Source: a virus. From it: a stretch of 34,250 nucleotides of DNA. The stretch lies in IMG/VR virus record IMGVR_UViG_3300045003_000097, positions 1 to 34,250 of that record; one strand, given 5' to 3'. Shown here one piece after another: positions 3,499-25,083 of this stretch (its first letter is position 1; every line of letters starts with the position of its first letter). Below the pieces are notes generated by a model. It was given only the letters and a program-made list of their open reading frames with translations. It did not search any database and was not told where the DNA came from. The translations under genes and the position numbers were made by a program.

Positions 3499-4950
3499 CT
3501 ACCGCCTCCGGCCCCTGGCCGGGGGCTCCTCTTCCTCCTCTTCCTCGGGCTCCTCTTCCTCCTCTTCCTCGGGCTCCTCTTCCTCGGGCTCCTCTTCCTC
3601 CTCTTCCAACTCGCTGTCCTCATCCTCTTCGTCCAGGTCCTCGTCCTCCTCCGGGGGAGGGGGCTGGGTCTTCTTACCCTTCTTCTGGGCGGCCGGCCTA
3701 GGGGCCTCCTCCTCTTCCTCAGTCTCCAGGTTCTCCCGGTGGAGGACGGCCTTGCACCGGGCTGGGTCTACCCCCTTGATCGTCTTGCCCTCGTCGTCCG
3801 AGACGATCATGTTCCCGTCCGGGCCGATGGCGTCCACCTCCCACTCCTTGCCCTTGTACTCCACCCAGGAGCCCGGTTTGAAGGTCTTGACGATCTTCCC
3901 CTCCCCGTCCGTGTGGACCTTCGCGGAGGACGGCCTGCTGGTCTGGGTATCGGGGGGGGAGGGCCTCCTGGAGGCGGCCGGGGGGCCGCTCCCGACGGGG
4001 ACCTCCGGGGTGGCCGGGGAGAGCAGCTCCAGGTCCACCCGGATGGGCTCATCGTAGCCCTCCACCTCCACCTCGGCCTCCCCCCGGGCCTCGTTGATCT
4101 CCACCACGGTCCCGGTCATGGCCTTGCCCTTCTTGCTGGTCCAGGCTACGTAGGAGCCCTCCCGGACCGGCTCCGGGGTCGCCGCGGCCTTGGCCTGGCC
4201 CGGCCGGAGCAGGAACGCCTTCTCCAGTTCCGCGTAGCTCATGTGGACCAGGCAGTCGTCCAGGCACGGGGCCTGGTCCACCATGTCCAGGTCATAGTCG
4301 TACTTGCGGGGAACCATCTCGATGTTCGTGATCTTGTTGAAGGCCCGGCCCTTGAAGCTGTCCTTGGAGATGGACAGCTGGAGGGTCATGCCCCCGGCCT
4401 CCCGGGTCGGCTTGAAGAAGTGGCGGTGGTGCTCGGCCGAGTTGATCTTGGCCTTGAGCAGCTCCCCGAAGCCCTTGAAGTACGCCTGGTCGAGGATCTG
4501 GAAGCCCTTAGCCCTCTCGGCCTCGTTGGAGACGTCGATGACCGCGAACAGCATCCGCTTCTGGTCCCGGAGGGCGATCCAGGTGTCCTTGTCCAGGGCC
4601 CGGCCCTCGTCGCTCTCCAGCCACTCGCAGATGGGGCAGGGCTCGTTGAACATCCGCAGGCAGGGGTAGGACTTCTTGCCGTCCACCCCCAGGTTCCGGT
4701 GGCAGCGGTACTCCCGGGTGAAGTGGACCATGCCCTCGTCGGCGTCGGGGTTGCCCTTCCCCACGACGTAAGCCATGAAGTCCAGCAGGGCGAAGGTCCC
4801 GGGGGTCTTCTTGTTCAGGGACCAGAACCCGACCCCCTCCGGGGGCTTGATACAGGTCGGCTCGAAGCCGGCGTCCTGCTTCTCCACCCATTCTTTCGCG
4901 TCAACAAATCTTAATTCTCTTTTTTCTTTCTCTCGCCTATTCAGAGCCAT
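3499..4950 (-). CDS. gp32-like single-stranded DNA-binding protein with SH3-like repeats and acidic tail
   Basis: 483 aa from the ATG at 4950, chosen for its AAGGAGG ribosome site five bases upstream, although the frame is open further upstream. A Cys/His cluster (C83, H84, C97, C105, C108; ending CPICEW) inside an OB-like N-terminal region recalls the zinc subdomain of T4 gp32-type SSBs. Two beta-rich modules follow, at about 264-310 (GSYVAWTSKKGK) and 356-402 (GSWVEYKGKEWEV), that look like SH3/KOW-type barrels. Residues 434-475 are almost all Glu/Asp, the usual acidic partner-docking tail, but here capped by basic ARGRRR. SSBs coat ssDNA during replication and recombination. The first 21 codons are A/T-ending and unlike the rest of the gene (see findings). 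Confidence 0.75.
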   Translation of the reverse strand: MALNRREKEKRELRFVDAKEWVEKQDAGFEPTCIKPPEGVGFWSLNKKTPGTFALLDFMAYVVGKGNPDADEGMVHFTREYRCHRNLGVDGKKSYPCLRMFNEPCPICEWLESDEGRALDKDTWIALRDQKRMLFAVIDVSNEAERAKGFQILDQAYFKGFGELLKAKINSAEHHRHFFKPTREAGGMTLQLSISKDSFKGRAFNKITNIEMVPRKYDYDLDMVDQAPCLDDCLVHMSYAELEKAFLLRPGQAKAAATPEPVREGSYVAWTSKKGKAMTGTVVEINEARGEAEVEVEGYDEPIRVDLELLSPATPEVPVGSGPPAASRRPSPPDTQTSRPSSAKVHTDGEGKIVKTFKPGSWVEYKGKEWEVDAIGPDGNMIVSDDEGKTIKGVDPARCKAVLHRENLETEEEEEAPRPAAQKKGKKTQPPPPEEDEDLDEEDEDSELEEEEEEPEEEEPEEEEEEEPEEEEEEEPPARGRRR

Positions 4951-5670
4951 GGAAACCTCCTTCATTTTGGTAAGAAACCCTTCTGGAATCGCATGAACCC
5001 ATCTAGCCCCCCGGCGTATATCCTTGATAACTCCAGGTAAAACCGGGTAGTCTCGCGAAATAGATACGGCAGACTCTCCAGTTAGAAGTCGTTCGCAGAT
5101 AACCGGAATGTCTTCGTCTTTTAGCTTGGAATTCCCGTGGGTCGATCCCCTCGGCATCAAACCCATCTTCATGGCATGTTCGATATTCCCCCGCCTCGTG
5201 ATCCATTCCAAGTTACCCGGAGTATTGTCTGATCTATCGGCACTTTTGTGGTTTATTTCTGGAAGGTTATCCGGGTTTGGTAGGAAAGCATTAGCAACGA
5301 GCAGGTGGACCCCAGTCATCTTAGCTACCCCGTGTTTGCAAAGATCAACGCCTAAATATCCACCGGCCCAGGCCGCCTTCAGGATCTTCTCCCGTACCCT
5401 CTGAAATCCCCAATGAGGGCTATACTTCATCCTTTCCAGGGATTTTACCCTACCCCAGCAGGATACCTGGTAGAGCCCTTCATACCCCTGAATATCCTTC
5501 CAAATTTCTTCGCCATGCCTAACGAGAACCGGAGATGATTCTGGTTTCCTAGAATGATATGGCACGCCCTTGGCTCCTTTCACAGCTGGGGGTTTGTAAA
5601 TTGGTCGGGGGAGGGTAACTCTACCCTCTTCCGTCCTATTACCATACCTAATTCCAACCGTGAAAACCAT
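3499..5670 (-). CDS. HNH homing endonuclease (NUMOD4 + HNH_3 type) open in frame into ssb
   Basis: ATG at 5670 with AGAGGAG five to six bases upstream. The first 240 codons are endonuclease: a NUMOD4 motif at 54-80 (EEIWKDIQGYEGLYQVS), an HNH nuclease block with H122, N140-H141 and NLEW at 153-156, and a C-terminal helix-turn-helix-like DNA-binding segment (about 180-225). HNH homing enzymes nick or cut a target gene to spread their own gene. No stop separates this part from ssb, so translation from 5670 would give a 723-aa endonuclease-SSB fusion, while ssb also has its own start at 4950. The 5' part is clearly A/T-richer (about 42% GC in 5221-5280 by hand count) than the flanks, a sign of transfer. 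Confidence 0.75.
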   Translation of the reverse strand: MVFTVGIRYGNRTEEGRVTLPRPIYKPPAVKGAKGVPYHSRKPESSPVLVRHGEEIWKDIQGYEGLYQVSCWGRVKSLERMKYSPHWGFQRVREKILKAAWAGGYLGVDLCKHGVAKMTGVHLLVANAFLPNPDNLPEINHKSADRSDNTPGNLEWITRRGNIEHAMKMGLMPRGSTHGNSKLKDEDIPVICERLLTGESAVSISRDYPVLPGVIKDIRRGARWVHAIPEGFLTKMKEVSMALNRREKEKRELRFVDAKEWVEKQDAGFEPTCIKPPEGVGFWSLNKKTPGTFALLDFMAYVVGKGNPDADEGMVHFTREYRCHRNLGVDGKKSYPCLRMFNEPCPICEWLESDEGRALDKDTWIALRDQKRMLFAVIDVSNEAERAKGFQILDQAYFKGFGELLKAKINSAEHHRHFFKPTREAGGMTLQLSISKDSFKGRAFNKITNIEMVPRKYDYDLDMVDQAPCLDDCLVHMSYAELEKAFLLRPGQAKAAATPEPVREGSYVAWTSKKGKAMTGTVVEINEARGEAEVEVEGYDEPIRVDLELLSPATPEVPVGSGPPAASRRPSPPDTQTSRPSSAKVHTDGEGKIVKTFKPGSWVEYKGKEWEVDAIGPDGNMIVSDDEGKTIKGVDPARCKAVLHRENLETEEEEEAPRPAAQKKGKKTQPPPPEEDEDLDEEDEDSELEEEEEEPEEEEPEEEEEEEPEEEEEEEPPARGRRR
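3526..3607 (-). repeat. tandem GAG/GAA-rich coding repeat
   Basis: Repeated units of GAGGAAGAGGAGCCC type encode the Glu-rich EEEEEP tail of the SSB. Such near-perfect purine repeats are prone to length change by slippage. Confidence 0.7.
4956..4962 (-). promoter_or_regulatory. ribosome binding site for ssb inside the endonuclease ORF
   Basis: AAGGAGG, five bases before the ATG at 4950. It makes independent initiation of ssb likely even though the endonuclease frame runs through. Confidence 0.7.
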
Positions 5671-5680
5671 CCGGGCTCCT

Positions 5681-5725
5681 CTACCCCAGCTCCCTCTTCT
5701 CCTTCTCCCGTCGTGACAGCACCAT
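5681..5725 (-). pseudogene. displaced original 5' end of ssb
   Basis: A 14-codon ORF upstream of the HNH gene reads MVLSRREKEKREL then Gly and TAG. The functional ssb begins MALNRREKEKREL. Eleven of the first 13 residues agree, but the codons differ: this copy uses GC-rich phage codons (12 of 14 third positions G/C), the functional copy A/T-rich ones. It is best read as the native start of ssb, cut off after codon 13 when the endonuclease gene inserted. Confidence 0.75.
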
Positions 5726-5809: not shown

Positions 5810-6025
5810 CTAGCCTGGTAGCTTGGTTGGCTTCTCGGGTTCACTGGAAGGGTCAGTCTCGGGAGCCGCGTCGCTCCCCGGATACAGCTGGGAGAACCGC
5901 CGCCGTGCCTGGAGGACCCCGTAGGTCCACATCTTGCCGATGAGGTAGACGGACAGGGGCACGGCCCCCAGGCCCAGGAGCAGGCTCCCCCCCACCAGCC
6001 ACAGGAAGTTCTCCCAGCCCGTCAT
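5810..6025 (-). CDS. small single-pass membrane protein (71 aa)
   Basis: ATG at 6025, sharing one base with the TGA of the Mom-like gene (TGATG), so translation is coupled. One hydrophobic span covers about residues 7-27 (LWLVGGSLLLGLGAVPLSVY), followed by a basic segment (QARRRF) and an acidic/proline tail ending KPTKLPG. No signal cleavage motif seen. The basic side after the span suggests the C-terminus faces the cytoplasm. Function unknown; holin-like size, but nothing else supports lysis. Confidence 0.6.
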   Translation of the reverse strand: MTGWENFLWLVGGSLLLGLGAVPLSVYLIGKMWTYGVLQARRRFSQLYPGSDAAPETDPSSEPEKPTKLPG

Positions 6026-6690
6026 CACTTCTTCTTCCCTTCTCCAACGATGTGGACGAACCTCTTCTTCCGGAAGAACCCCACCCTCTCGCACCCCTGC
6101 CGGAGCATGTCTTCGTGGGTCATGGTAGGGCTGGACCCCTTCTTCCTCCCCATGACCCGGCCGTCAGCCTTCCGGACGTACTGGGGGACCGGGACCGTCC
6201 AGCCCATCTCCACCCAGCCGGCCGCCCTGTAGATTGTCCCCTCGTGCCCCTGCCACTCGTCAGCATAGGAGAGCAGGCAGGGCCACCGCTCCCGGTCTAT
6301 CAGTCGCATCGAGTGCCGGATCAGGAAGGAGCAGGCGTTCTTCGGGACTCCGGGGACGACCACCAGCCGGGACAGGGACAGGACCCCCCTCCAGTTCTCC
6401 GGGTAGCAGTAGTTCGCCGCATCCATGGTCGGGGGCATCCACCAGGAGACCCCCCGGCAGTCAGAGTCGAATAAAGCCCTGTCCTTCCGGAACAGGCCGA
6501 AGACGTAGGTCCCGGTATGACTGCCTCCCCTGGAGTAGTGGAATCTTTTCACCAGTAGTCGGGCAATCCGAACAGAGCACGGCCGGACTACCCACTCCTC
6601 CTTCCGGAATAGCCCCGGGATAGGACTCGAACCTTCTCCCCCCCCCTGGTTCGGGGGGTGTGCCACCCTTACACTACCGGGGCCGGTCAC
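6025..6690 (-). CDS. Mom-like DNA modification protein (GNAT-related)
   Basis: 221 codons. The pattern FHYSRGG near residue 51, LSLSRLVVVPGVPKNACSF near 105-123, then LLSYADEWQGHEGTIYRAAGW near 139-160 (quoted in outline) matches phage Mom-family proteins as I know them. Mu Mom converts adenine in DNA to a carbamoylmethyl derivative to evade restriction. Cellular role here would be protection of phage DNA. The GTG at 6690 overlaps the upstream stop (GTGA), but the first 28 codons coincide with a tRNA-like sequence; no other good start exists in this frame before the GTG at about codon 48. A strong GGAAGGAGG sits downstream of the tRNA-like element without a matching start in frame. Family call good, start uncertain. 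Confidence 0.65.
   Translation of the reverse strand: MTGPGSVRVAHPPNQGGGEGSSPIPGLFRKEEWVVRPCSVRIARLLVKRFHYSRGGSHTGTYVFGLFRKDRALFDSDCRGVSWWMPPTMDAANYCYPENWRGVLSLSRLVVVPGVPKNACSFLIRHSMRLIDRERWPCLLSYADEWQGHEGTIYRAAGWVEMGWTVPVPQYVRKADGRVMGRKKGSSPTMTHEDMLRQGCERVGFFRKKRFVHIVGEGKKK
6612..6683 (-). tRNA. degenerate tRNA-like sequence (no clear anticodon)
   Basis: Minus strand, 72 bases: acceptor arms GCCCCGG/CCGGGGC pair perfectly; D-arm TAGTGTAAGGGTGGCAC has a GTGT/GCAC stem and GG loop; T-arm has the canonical GGTTCGAGTCC. The anticodon arm is CCCCC-CGAACCA-GGGGG, so base 33 is G rather than T, and the T stem has an A-A mismatch plus one extra base. It resembles a decayed or unusual tRNA rather than a working one. 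It lies inside the 5' end of the Mom-like ORF. Confidence 0.4.
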
Positions 6691-21085: not shown

Positions 21086-22225
21086 TCACGTTCCTTTCTG
21101 CTTTGGTTTTCTGCGGACCAGCTCCATACCGTAGTCGTCGTCTCCGACCCTCCTCACGATGCCGGGCCGGAGGCGGAGCCGGTTCCGCCTAAAGGGCGAG
21201 TAGTCCACCAGGTGGTGCCAGCGGTTGAACCGCCAGACTACCTTCACCACGTCCGGGTGCTGGTCCCGGAGGGACTCCGCGAAGGCCAGCCGGTGGTCAT
21301 CCGTCTTGTACACGGTGTCGGTGTTCCCGCCCTTCATGGCCCGGGCCCCCTTGCACCCGGCCGTGTCGAGCTTCCTCATGAGCAGGGCCCGGAAGAGCAA
21401 CGTGACGTACCCGTCCTTGAGGACCCTCAGGGACAGGTCCGTATCCTCGTTGTACTTCCCCCGCCAGCGGTAGGGCAGGGACGTGTCGATCAGGATGCAG
21501 GAGTAGACCCGGCTGTTGAGGAGGAAGGGGGACAGCCGCGGCTCCCGGTCCATGACAAAGCCCACGTGGTGGGGGCCGGCCAGGGCCACGTTCTCGTAGC
21601 GGTCCACGAAGTCCTCCATGGCCAGGAAGAACCTCCCCCCGTGTACGGACAGGCGGCGGTTCTGGGTAGTCCGGTAGAAGTTGCGGATATTGTCGTCAAC
21701 TACCCAGTGCCTCCTGTGGCCGTTCTCCCTGGCCCACTCCCAGATGAAGTTCCGGGCCGGGATCGAGCCCTGGCCCAGGTCGTGGAAGGGGAGCTTGACT
21801 ACCTTGTCCTTCCCCAAGTGGCGGCAGTACCTCTTGTACTCCGTTTCCTCCACGAAGAACCTGTGGCTGACCCCCAGGCGGTCCAGGGCCCTCCCGGTAG
21901 TCTGGCAGTCCCAGCGGCCCTTGCTGGGGATACAGACCGGGTAGCGGCTATCCGCCTTGGGGCCGTCCCAGTAGAACTCGCCGCCGGAGAGGACCCCCTG
22001 GTCCGGGTACCAGGCCGTGTCGGAGCGGGCCGTCACGCGGAGCCCGGTCACCCTCGCGAACTCCTCCACGTCCTCCTTGGTCATGAAGTTGACCGTGATC
22101 GCGTAGTTGGGCCGGGCGTTGCCCATGGCGAAGCTGGGCATCCCCCACCACTCGGTCCGCCAGTCCGGCTCCAGGTCCAGCAGGCCCATCCTCGGGGGGT
22201 GCGTCTTCCGGGGGGGAACCTCCAT
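21086..22225 (-). CDS. TET-associated-type GT-A glycosyltransferase, copy 1
   Basis: 379 aa from ATG 22225, after a tandem GGAGGTA repeat that supplies ribosome sites. Glycosyltransferase core: YPVCIPSKGR at 95-104, LGQGSIPARNFIWEW at 150-164, the metal-binding HWVVDDNI at 173-180, EDFVDRYENVALAGPH at 204-219, RWRGKYNEDTDLSLRVLKDGY at 253-273 (outline), GGNTDTVY and a WHHLVDY-type segment near 340. This matches the TAGT family described by Iyer and colleagues (2013) for phage base hypermodification, which is predicted to sugar-modify oxidised pyrimidines in DNA. Residues 1-90 form an extra module (ITVNFMTKEDVEEFARVTG). The closest relatives are the two copies downstream in the window; copy 3 has 60-70% identity by eye. 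Confidence 0.75.
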   Translation of the reverse strand: MEVPPRKTHPPRMGLLDLEPDWRTEWWGMPSFAMGNARPNYAITVNFMTKEDVEEFARVTGLRVTARSDTAWYPDQGVLSGGEFYWDGPKADSRYPVCIPSKGRWDCQTTGRALDRLGVSHRFFVEETEYKRYCRHLGKDKVVKLPFHDLGQGSIPARNFIWEWARENGHRRHWVVDDNIRNFYRTTQNRRLSVHGGRFFLAMEDFVDRYENVALAGPHHVGFVMDREPRLSPFLLNSRVYSCILIDTSLPYRWRGKYNEDTDLSLRVLKDGYVTLLFRALLMRKLDTAGCKGARAMKGGNTDTVYKTDDHRLAFAESLRDQHPDVVKVVWRFNRWHHLVDYSPFRRNRLRLRPGIVRRVGDDDYGMELVRRKPKQKGT

Positions 22226-22230
22226 AGTGC

Positions 22231-22260
22231 TCTACCTCCTACCTCCTACCTCCTACCTCT
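22231..22260 (-). repeat. tandem TAGGAGG repeat acting as multiple ribosome sites
   Basis: On the minus strand GGAGGTA is repeated about four times between the stop of the 188-aa gene and ATG 22225. Each unit contains a near-perfect Shine-Dalgarno sequence. Copy number could vary by slippage and tune expression of copy 1. Confidence 0.7.
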
Positions 22261-22825
22261 ACTTCCGGAAGCCGAACCCGACCGGCTTCTTCGTCCTCCG
22301 CCCCCGGTAGGCGTGCAGCTTGCGGGCAAGGCGGCCGGCCTTACCCAGGGTCGTCAGGGAGACCCAGACCCAGTTCCGGGCATACTCGGGGCCCCACCTC
22401 TCCCGGAAAGCCGCGAAAATCGCCTCAAACTCCGGGGTGTAGGGCAGCTGGTCCCTGGTCAGGGGCTGGGCGTCGTAGGCTTCCACGAGGTGGCGGACCA
22501 TGGCCGGGGACAGGTTCGAGCCGCGGGCCGGGCCCCGCCTCTTCCCGGAGGTCCTGATCTCCACCCCGCCGACCCGGTAGTGCTGCTTCCTCAGGTAGAG
22601 GCAGCGGTAGTAGACCCCGGCCTCCGTCCCCCAGGGGTGGCCGGGGTGGGCCGCCCGGTAGTCTATGGCCAGCTGCCCCAGGTCCGGGGCATAGGCCCAC
22701 CGCTCCGGGTCGCCGGGGATCTCGGCGGAGTAGACGGCCAGCCAGGCGTCGTCCCACCAGTGTCCTTCGGGATCTCGGGCCACGGGAGTCTTCTCCTTTC
22801 CACCTTCGCTGGTACGGCCGGTCAC
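22259..22825 (-). CDS. hypothetical protein inside the glycosyltransferase cluster (188 aa)
   Basis: GTG 22825 overlaps the stop of glycosyltransferase copy 2 (GTGA) with GGAAGGG before it, so the two are co-translated. Tryptophan- and tyrosine-rich N-terminal half (HWWDDAWLAVYSAEIPGDPERW, shown in part), no metal motif, no membrane span; C-terminus strongly basic (RGRRTKKPVGFGFRK), as in DNA-binding tails. Not recognised. Its place between two glycosyltransferases suggests a part in the same modification. Confidence 0.65.
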   Translation of the reverse strand: MTGRTSEGGKEKTPVARDPEGHWWDDAWLAVYSAEIPGDPERWAYAPDLGQLAIDYRAAHPGHPWGTEAGVYYRCLYLRKQHYRVGGVEIRTSGKRRGPARGSNLSPAMVRHLVEAYDAQPLTRDQLPYTPEFEAIFAAFRERWGPEYARNWVWVSLTTLGKAGRLARKLHAYRGRRTKKPVGFGFRK

Positions 22826-23952
22826 GAACCCTTCCGGACCAGCTCCATACCGTAGTCGTTATTCCCCTCCACCCTCACCACCCCCGGTCTAGGAACCAGC
22901 CGGTTCTTCGCGAACGGGGCATAGTTCACCTCATGGTGCCACCTGTTAAACTTCCAGACTACCTTTACTACGTCCGGGTGCTGCTCTCTTAAAGATTCGG
23001 CGAAGGCGAGACGGTAGTCCCCGGTATTGTAGACCGTATCCGTATTCCCGCCCTTCATAGGTTTGTTATTCCTAGACCCCGCCGTACCGGGTTTACACAT
23101 ACATAGGGCACGGAATAGAACGGTACAGTAGCCATCCTTGAGCAGGCGTAGGGATAAATCGGTATCCTCGTTATAACGGCCCCGCCACCTATAGGGGAGT
23201 AACGTATCGAGTAGAATAAAAGAGTATACCCTACTATTTAATAAGAATGGGGTAAGTCTCTGGTTCCGGTCCCGGACAAAGTTCCTATCGTGGGGCCCCG
23301 CCATAGCGACGTTCTCGTACCTATCCACGAAGTCCTCCATGGCCCGGAAGAAACCCCCGCCACGAACTAATAACTTCCGGTTATTCGTCGTCCGGCAGCA
23401 GTGTTTGATATTATCGTCCACTACCCAGTGCCTCCTGTACCCCCTCTCCTTACACCACTCCCAGATGAAGTTTCTAGCCGGTATGGAACCCTGTCCAAGA
23501 TCATGGAAGGGGAGTTTGACTACCTTCTCCTCTCCGAGATGCCGACAGTATTCCTCATACTCGGTCTCCTCCACGAAGAAGCGGTAGCCGACTCCGAGCC
23601 GGTCCAAAACTTTCCCGGTCAGCTGGCAGTCCCAGCGCCCCTTGCTGGGGATGCAGACGGGATACCTGGAGTCGGTCTTGGGTCCGTCCCAGTAGAACTC
23701 CTCTCTCGACAAAACTTCCTGATGGGGATACCAGGCCGAATTGGACTGAGTTCTAATTCTCAAACCGGCTACTCTAGAGAACTCTTCCATGTCCCCCTTC
23801 GTCATGAAGTTAATGGTTATCCGGTAGTTAGGTAGGGTATCTTCCATAGAGAAACTCGGCATCCCCCACCACTCGGTCCGCCAGTCAGGATCTATGCACA
23901 GGAACCCCCTGTCCCGGATATGTGACCTCTTCTTACGGGGGGGAACATCCAT
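22822..23952 (-). CDS. TET-associated-type GT-A glycosyltransferase, copy 2 (A/T-rich)
   Basis: 376 aa. It keeps all core motifs of copy 1: YPVCIPSKGR, LGQGSIPARNFIWEW, HWVVDDNI, the RWRG-YNEDTDLSLR-LKDGY block and GGNTDTVY. After VVDDNI it has KHCCRTTNN where the other copies have RNFYRT, a local change near the likely substrate site. Codons are clearly A/T-richer than in copies 1 and 3 (about 43% GC against 67% over a matching 60-base stretch, hand-counted), although the proteins are alike. ATG 23952 follows GGAAGAGGTAGG. Probably adds a sugar to a modified base in phage DNA; substrate unknown. Confidence 0.75.
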   Translation of the reverse strand: MDVPPRKKRSHIRDRGFLCIDPDWRTEWWGMPSFSMEDTLPNYRITINFMTKGDMEEFSRVAGLRIRTQSNSAWYPHQEVLSREEFYWDGPKTDSRYPVCIPSKGRWDCQLTGKVLDRLGVGYRFFVEETEYEEYCRHLGEEKVVKLPFHDLGQGSIPARNFIWEWCKERGYRRHWVVDDNIKHCCRTTNNRKLLVRGGGFFRAMEDFVDRYENVAMAGPHDRNFVRDRNQRLTPFLLNSRVYSFILLDTLLPYRWRGRYNEDTDLSLRLLKDGYCTVLFRALCMCKPGTAGSRNNKPMKGGNTDTVYNTGDYRLAFAESLREQHPDVVKVVWKFNRWHHEVNYAPFAKNRLVPRPGVVRVEGNNDYGMELVRKGS

Positions 23953-23961
23953 ACCGCAAAC

Positions 23962-25083
23962 CTACCTCTTCCGGACCAGCTCCATACCGTAGTCGTTCTC
24001 ACCTACTGTCCTCACGATACCCTCCCGGAGCCGCAGCCGGTTCCTCCGGAACGGTGCGTAGTCTACCTTGTGGTGCCAGCGGCCGAACCTCCACACCACC
24101 TCCACGCAGTCGGGGTGCTGGTCCCTCAGGGACTCCGCGAAGGCCCGCCGGTAGTCCCCGGTACTGTAGACCGTATCCGTGTTCCCGCCCCGCATGGGTC
24201 TCACGCCCCGGGAGCCGGCCGTGTCCGGCTTATCCATGCACAGGGCGTTAAAGAGTAGGGTCGCGTACCCGTCCTTGAGCAGGCGGAGGGACAGGTCCGT
24301 GTCCTCGTTGTAGCGGCCCCTCCACCTGTGGGGCAGAGAGGTGTCCAGGAGGATACAAGAGTAGACCCGGCTGTTGAGCAGGAAGGGGGACAGGCCCGGG
24401 TTCCGGTCGTCCACGAAGGCGATGTCGTGGGGGCCCGCCATGGCGACGTTCTCGTAGCGGTCCACGAAGTCCTCCATGGCCCGGAAGAACCCGCCCCCGC
24501 GGACCGTCAGCCTCCTGTTGCCGTTCGTCCGGTAGAAGTTACGGATGTTGTCGTCCACGACCCAGTGGCGTCCGTATCCCCTCTCCCTGCACCACTCCCA
24601 GATGAAATTTCTAGCTGGTATGGACCCCTGCCCTAAATCGTGAAAGGGGAGCTTAACCACCCTCTCCCGGCCGAGGCTAGAGAAGTAGTCCGCGTACTCC
24701 GTCTCCTCCACGAAGAACCTATAACTTACCCCGAGCCGGTCCAGGATCTTCCCGGTCAGCTGGCAGCCGGCCCGCCCCTTACTGGGGATGCAGACCGGGT
24801 ACTTAGAGTCAGTCTTCGGGCCGCCGTAGTAGAACTCTCCGGCCCGGAGCCGGTCCCGGGCCGGGTACCAGGCCGAGTCCGACTTCGCCGTCACCCGCAG
24901 GCCGGAAACCTCGGCGAACCGCTCCACGTCACCCCTAGTCATGAAGTTCACCGTGATAGAGTAGCCCGGCCGGGCGTCCCGCATGGAGAACGCGGGCATC
25001 CCCCACCAGTGCTTCCTCCAGTCCTGTTCCAGGTCGAGGAGGCCGGACGCCTTCGGGCGGATATCCTTCGGCGGGACCTCCAT
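23962..25083 (-). CDS. TET-associated-type GT-A glycosyltransferase, copy 3
   Basis: 373 aa from ATG 25083, two bases after the stop of the UDG-like gene, whose end supplies GGAGGGGG. The same core motifs as copies 1 and 2 are intact, including the DDN metal site and the NEDTDLSLRLLKDGY block, so all three look active. Differences cluster at residues 1-95 (FYYGGPKTDSKYP) and in the sugar- or base-contact loops. First of the three in transcription order, with GC-rich codons like its neighbours. Confidence 0.75.
   Translation of the reverse strand: MEVPPKDIRPKASGLLDLEQDWRKHWWGMPAFSMRDARPGYSITVNFMTRGDVERFAEVSGLRVTAKSDSAWYPARDRLRAGEFYYGGPKTDSKYPVCIPSKGRAGCQLTGKILDRLGVSYRFFVEETEYADYFSSLGRERVVKLPFHDLGQGSIPARNFIWEWCRERGYGRHWVVDDNIRNFYRTNGNRRLTVRGGGFFRAMEDFVDRYENVAMAGPHDIAFVDDRNPGLSPFLLNSRVYSCILLDTSLPHRWRGRYNEDTDLSLRLLKDGYATLLFNALCMDKPDTAGSRGVRPMRGGNTDTVYSTGDYRRAFAESLRDQHPDCVEVVWRFGRWHHKVDYAPFRRNRLRLREGIVRTVGENDYGMELVRKR

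Follow-up and report, generated by a model that had tools for sequence, protein, structure and literature searches.

How does a phage gene come to possess its start twice, with another gene between the two copies? The window, by which we mean the full 34,250-nt stretch of DNA that was analyzed, is a single metagenomic virus record whose minus strand carries, in order, a small gene ending near position 5810, a short relic ORF, an HNH ORF, and ssb, the gene for a single-stranded DNA-binding protein. A sequence-only reading of this locus had proposed that an HNH gene inserted into the 5′ end of ssb, leaving the old start behind while a second start rebuilt the gene. That outline survives our analysis, with corrections on three points: the identity of the native copy, the length of the imported part, and the translation of ssb.

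The duplicated ssb start and the HNH gene between the copies

The relic ORF (5681..5725, minus strand) runs from an ATG at 5725 to a TAG at 5681 and encodes MVLSRREKEKRELG. Its extent, 14 codons plus stop, had been read correctly at the outset, but the peptide given then omitted one residue, a G. When the first residues of ssb, which begins at 4950 (MALNRREKEKREL), were used as the query in a six-frame scan of the whole window, ssb itself scored 63, the relic at 5725 scored 54 (11 of 13 residues identical), and the next place scored 26, less than half as much; the maximum in ten shuffles was 25. The proposed match between the two copies and its coordinates are thus right. The relic and the working start differ at 15 of 39 nucleotides, with eight codons changed synonymously and two not, for an identity of 62% in nucleotides and 85% in amino acids. 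An annotation-free scan of 3.6 Mb of DNA, which looked for short ORFs whose start matches that of a longer ORF 250–2500 nt downstream, placed the pair among its top matches, with only a proline/glycine-rich repeat scoring higher; the HNH-rich first 50 kb of Pectobacterium phage CB7 yielded no duplicated start beyond a Pro/Gly-rich repeat. The duplication of the ssb start, with the HNH gene exactly between the copies, is therefore a confirmed observation.

The HNH gene (4951..5670, minus strand; 240 codons) begins with an ATG at 5670, 10 nt past the relic stop. It contains a NUMOD4 domain at residues 55–110 (Pfam 1.2e-11) and an HNH_3 domain at residues 121–162 (Pfam 8.5e-6), both above the Pfam cut-off, matches PHROG 59 (HNH endonuclease) at 3.1e-42, and ends in a stretch that is helix-turn-helix-like, as in the protein of locus L013 with which it was aligned. 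Its NUMOD4 and HNH_3 domains and its PHROG 59 match place it among free-standing endonuclease genes of the HNH homing type. Related proteins start at NUMOD4; the window frame has an additional N-terminal extension of ~53 residues (5508–5670, minus strand), for which no relative was found. A similarity between residues 1–53 and Lactococcus phage LW81 was dropped, as the matched DNA is interrupted by stops and lies upstream of the annotated HNH gene. The ATG at 5670 may not be the true start; a GTG at 5565 with a good Shine-Dalgarno (SD) site is an alternative.

The ssb gene (3499..4950, minus strand) encodes a protein of 483 amino acids with an acidic tail. By sequence alone, this protein gave a weak PHROG match to ssb, while nine of ten aligned family members matched PHROG 1192 (single-strand DNA-binding protein; best 4.8e-10). 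We used a structural model built from 51 sequences (pLDDT 83.8; an earlier model from 10 sequences had pLDDT 60). Foldseek returned the T4 gp32 core, 1gpc, as its best match (E 2.9e-5, prob 1.00), with T4 and RB69 gp32 cores at the top. As modeled, the protein has the gp32 core fold. This fold, together with the UvsX-like recombinase and the clamp loader encoded next to ssb, suggests that it binds single-stranded DNA. The N-terminal ~30 residues, which include the replaced part described below, were modeled with low confidence and are probably flexible.

The HNH gene had been correctly placed between the two copies, but it has no stop of its own before ssb; the two form a single frame of 723 codons (3499..5670, minus strand) that could yield a fusion product. 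Within the last HNH codons, however, lies an SD site for ssb (AAGGAGGT; 4955..4962, minus strand) whose predicted duplex with the anti-SD has an energy of −12.4 kcal/mol, compared to −8.3 for the HNH ATG and −5.3 for the relic start. By duplex energy, it is the strongest for any in-frame start from 5670 to 4950, and thus ssb is expected to be translated from 4950.

Two further features of the window were noted on the minus strand. A tRNA-Val gene (anticodon aac) at 6611–6683 overlaps the 5′ part of a Mom-like ORF (6025–6690), whose true start is probably further in. At 21086–25083 there are three similar ORFs of 373–379 amino acids, which look like paralogues; two of them adjoin, and a small gene precedes the third.

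Codon composition and the native start

Which of the two starts is native can be told from codon composition. The fraction of codons ending in G or C (GC3) is 85% in the relic, as in the genes of this phage, 50% in the HNH gene, 36% in ssb codons 1–22, and 94% in ssb from codon 23 on. Only 8 of the first 22 ssb codons end in G or C (P about 7e-13 for eight or fewer at the rate of the rest of ssb), and change-point analysis of the joint frame put the switch at ssb codon 20, with a support interval of 20–23. Judged by this switch, the native start of ssb survives as the upstream relic, and the working copy is foreign, having arrived with the HNH gene. The insert would consist of the HNH gene, the ribosome-binding site, and about 22 recoded ssb codons (4885..4950, minus strand), so that its limits on the ssb side, like the embedded SD site, can be read from the DNA. 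The foreign origin of the replacement end rests on the GC3 break, the donor not being among the sequences found, and part of the difference in composition could be due to drift.

These data changed two elements of the original proposal. A second copy of the 5′ end does rebuild ssb, but the codon usage of the insert and the switch at codon 20–23 do not fit a local duplicate; and the join, which had been set at 13 codons, gives way to an imported part of about 22.

We considered the possibility that the 5′ end of ssb was duplicated in tandem and that a free-standing HNH gene, a common type, later invaded between the copies. Such a history would produce the same order of parts. However, it predicts two GC-rich copies, whereas GC3 is 31% in codons 1–13 of the downstream copy; the foreign composition continues past the homologous part, to codon 20–23; and in the crAss-like phages described below it is the relic, not the working start, that matches the uninserted allele. 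We regard tandem duplication as very unlikely.

Relatives of ssb and an independent case in crAss-like phages

We gathered relatives of ssb through UvsX and through ssb alignment. An uninterrupted ssb in relatives had been set beforehand as the check on the insertion. The gene was uninterrupted in about 115 relative loci, where it has a K/R-rich start after an ordinary leader; one locus of the set, L073, has a break in the ssb frame, and in another, L034, much of the gene order around the locus is retained. No HNH gene of the window type lies beside ssb in any of the about 115, and its presence at this site is thus sporadic. The ssb of L277 aligned with that of the window without gaps over residues 1–28, across the proposed join (MAKTKRQREKTKIAYTRTKDWVENQDSG / MALNRREKEKRELRFVDAKEWVEKQDAG), which indicates that the relic, joined to codon 14 and what follows, gives a single continuous ssb start, as had been predicted. 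The two results named in advance as telling against an insertion, a conserved upstream peptide gene and an ssb that never started with such a sequence, were not seen among these relatives.

The relatives are distant. The closest are only about 40% identical to the window ssb, and no close uninserted relative of the window phage was found; the N-terminal part of ssb had no match in the phages collection, and neither ssb nor UvsX had one in the genome contigs. The mechanism therefore cannot be read directly from the window alone, as had been claimed for both the target site and the mechanism, and the before-and-after evidence comes from a crAss-like exonuclease gene.

The same survey bears on the idea that the relic is a functional leader peptide that controls translation of the HNH gene or ssb and only resembles ssb. 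Translation of the relic could be coupled to that of the HNH gene, given that it has a start codon and a weak SD and that only 10 nt separate its stop from the HNH ATG. As no such peptide precedes ssb in the relatives, we find this explanation very unlikely, although a secondary leader role, which may exist, is compatible with that absence.

To find independent cases, we made two further searches for HNH genes and looked for peptides shared between the two flanks of each gene, taking mispaired flanks as the control; removal of near-duplicates left 148 distinct NUMOD4-HNH loci. The clearest case was in crAss-like phages, where the gene encodes an exonuclease of the PD-(D/E)XK type. L092, a contig that also appears as L161 and L197, carries in this order a relic (MMDISIPYYEDRTR), the HNH gene, and the full exonuclease gene, which starts MMDISTPYYSDFSR. 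L162 carries the same exonuclease gene, 93% identical to that of L092, without the insert. Comparison with this uninserted allele revealed that the L092 relic is identical at 39 of 42 nucleotides and the upstream DNA at 287 of 300, while the working start is identical at only 28 of 42. In L163, which belongs to another lineage (exonuclease 71% identical), a different relic (MDISIPYYEDKSR) precedes the HNH unit; its HNH protein is 86% identical to that of L092/L161, and the DNA of both lineages places the insertion after the same exonuclease codon.

Other alleles carry less of the insert. In L167 and L191 the HNH gene is reduced to its last ~27 codons, and the imported start is still present; in L167 this HNH end matches L161, and TGGAGG is retained ahead of the ATG. 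L189 has an altered start (YYSD) and no HNH gene. The Glu of the PYYED motif is kept in 31 of 32 HNH-less alleles, while all four alleles linked to an HNH gene or remnant have Ser or Thr (Fisher P 8e-5, for alleles that are related by descent and are not independent events). We infer that the change from Glu to Ser or Thr may reflect an alteration at the DNA level that shields the carrier from its own endonuclease. Side by side, L161, L163, L167, L191, and L189 fall into a series from empty site through intact HNH gene and remnants to an HNH-less altered start, which looks like a full cycle of gain and loss. As a separate observation, the spacer between relic and HNH gene in L092 (2433–2472) encodes MQPYYADLSL and a stop, with matching spacers in L163 and L167; it resembles yet another altered exonuclease start and is possibly the remnant of an earlier round.

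These alleles also address whether a group I intron could contain the HNH gene and the second start, with the relic as exon 1 and ssb from codon 14 on as exon 2. The relic and codon 14 onward are in frame, HNH genes of this type are known from group I introns too, and related genes contain an I-HmuI-like domain. However, Rfam searches at permissive thresholds gave no group I or group II match on the window region (E up to 5) or on L092, nearly all of the space between relic and ssb codes for protein, a complete second start preceded by an SD site would be superfluous if the insert were an intron, and the remnants in L167 and L191 retain the imported start without an intron. We consider an intron highly unlikely. 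Equally doubtful is domestication of the HNH protein as the N-terminal domain of a 723-aa HNH-SSB fusion with an incidental start at 4950: the frame is uninterrupted, but its strongest SD is at the ssb start, the HNH stop overlaps the start of the restored gene at other insertions, and no HNH-SSB fusion occurs among the ssb relatives. An assembly chimera is unlikely given the in-frame join and the independent cases in other phages.

Additional genes appear to have been affected. In L234, a gene of 120 amino acids with weak resemblance to DUF3127 has a GC-rich relic of 47 codons (GC3 62%), then the HNH gene, then a replacement start that is AT-rich (GC3 30%), making it a candidate third gene with the 5′ form. 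L211 (1144–2716) has the end of a PD-(D/E)XK nuclease gene, then the HNH gene, then a GC-richer leftover copy of the C-terminus; it appears to be a phage case of the 3′ form, with the C-terminus replaced and the native one left over. Altogether, the 148 loci contain the 5′ form in three unrelated genes and the 3′ form in at least one.

Four other loci stood out in these comparisons. L115 and L125, raised by the flank-similarity scan, were left aside as low-complexity. In L250 (2418–3190) the HNH gene is flanked on each side by a similar stretch of ~60 nt, and the locus is not claimed as a case. In L261 (2349–3079) a metallophosphoesterase gene lies upstream of the HNH gene, and the HNH protein ends in a sequence (FEYDSERLRVTYDI) similar to the C-terminus of that enzyme. 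This could be a 3′ form whose leftover is fused to the HNH frame, but with a score of 49 against a control maximum of 45, we do not claim it.

A model for the insertion and its relation to known systems

The model we favor, and think likely to be right, is that the first codons of ssb were invaded by a free-standing gene for an HNH homing endonuclease, which carried with it a replacement for the piece it severed. We infer that the endonuclease would cut an uninserted ssb near codon 13 and that the inserted copy would then serve as the template for break repair. The homology arms would be the native start, now the relic, on the left (the relic probably is this arm) and ssb codons from about 23 on at the right; copied in between would be the endonuclease gene, the strong ribosome-binding site in its 3′ end, and the ~22 recoded ssb codons. 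Restoration of ssb would depend on a new translation start and involve no splicing of RNA or protein. Nearly all of the recoding is synonymous, and it would keep the endonuclease from cutting its own carrier. Because the ribosome-binding site of ssb is inside the endonuclease gene, deletion of the latter would be expected to harm ssb.

If this is correct, a selfish nuclease can occupy an essential, conserved gene without an intron or intein by bringing a spare part. A native relic, an imported end, and a sharp join would form a readable record, from which target site and insert limits could be taken from sequence in many phages. The model would explain odd short ORFs that resemble gene starts, and under it cleavage-resistant alleles should persist after the endonuclease is lost. 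There is a warning in it too, as the first codons of such genes may differ in history from the remainder.

We found no earlier description of a phage endonuclease that brings a replacement gene start in the literature searched, mostly papers available without subscription, and priority is not established. The closest parallels are fungal mitochondrial gene hybrids made by mobile ORFs, in atp6 of Allomyces macrogynus and in atp6, atp9, cox2, and nad3 of Glomus sp. (PMC3630166). In these hybrids an endonuclease gene is accompanied by a foreign C-terminal end, the native end is left unused, and the endonuclease frame is in some cases, such as atp6, in phase with the gene (PMC3630166). The two Glomus atp6 copies share 63.5% of nucleotides and 91% of amino acids, with mainly synonymous differences (PMC3630166). 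The window resembles these hybrids in having an endonuclease gene in an essential gene, a foreign replacement end, a native end left in place, and mainly synonymous differences. However, the fungal replacements affect the 3′ (C-terminal) end and involve LAGLIDADG or GIY-YIG endonucleases, whereas the replaced ssb end is 5′ (N-terminal), the endonuclease is NUMOD4-HNH, and the host genome is that of a bacterial virus; L211 has the C-terminal arrangement. The ssb replacement also differs in bringing a new ribosome-binding site and start codon.

Among phages, the free-standing endonuclease SegG of T4-like phages lies beside gene 32, whose expression signals are embedded in segG (PMC2988022). As in the window, a free-standing endonuclease gene adjoins a phage SSB gene and contains its neighbor's expression signals, and the SegG case suggests that embedding the signals of an essential neighbor favors retention of the endonuclease. 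SegG is a GIY-YIG enzyme with embedded promoters, in contrast to the embedded ribosome-binding site and start codon found here, and no duplicated, recoded gene start is described for it (PMC2988022). In the split-gene insertions of mobE in nrdA of phage Aeh1 and mobA in T4 gene 60 (PMC2988022), an HNH endonuclease gene likewise lies within an essential coding region, but there the gene is split into two polypeptides that must reassemble, whereas ssb is rebuilt as one.

With mobile group I introns and inteins, too, an essential gene stays functional although it contains an endonuclease gene; there this is achieved by RNA or protein splicing, while ssb relies on a replacement translation start. 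We lean, if only slightly, towards the broader view that phage homing endonucleases have repeatedly and independently come to use a third way of occupying essential genes besides introns and inteins, namely a recoded, cleavage-resistant gene end together with expression signals. Each insertion would swap the end of the gene, which would then depend on the 3′ end of the endonuclease gene. Over time, essential genes would be left with patchwork ends and with HNH-less resistant alleles like that of L189.
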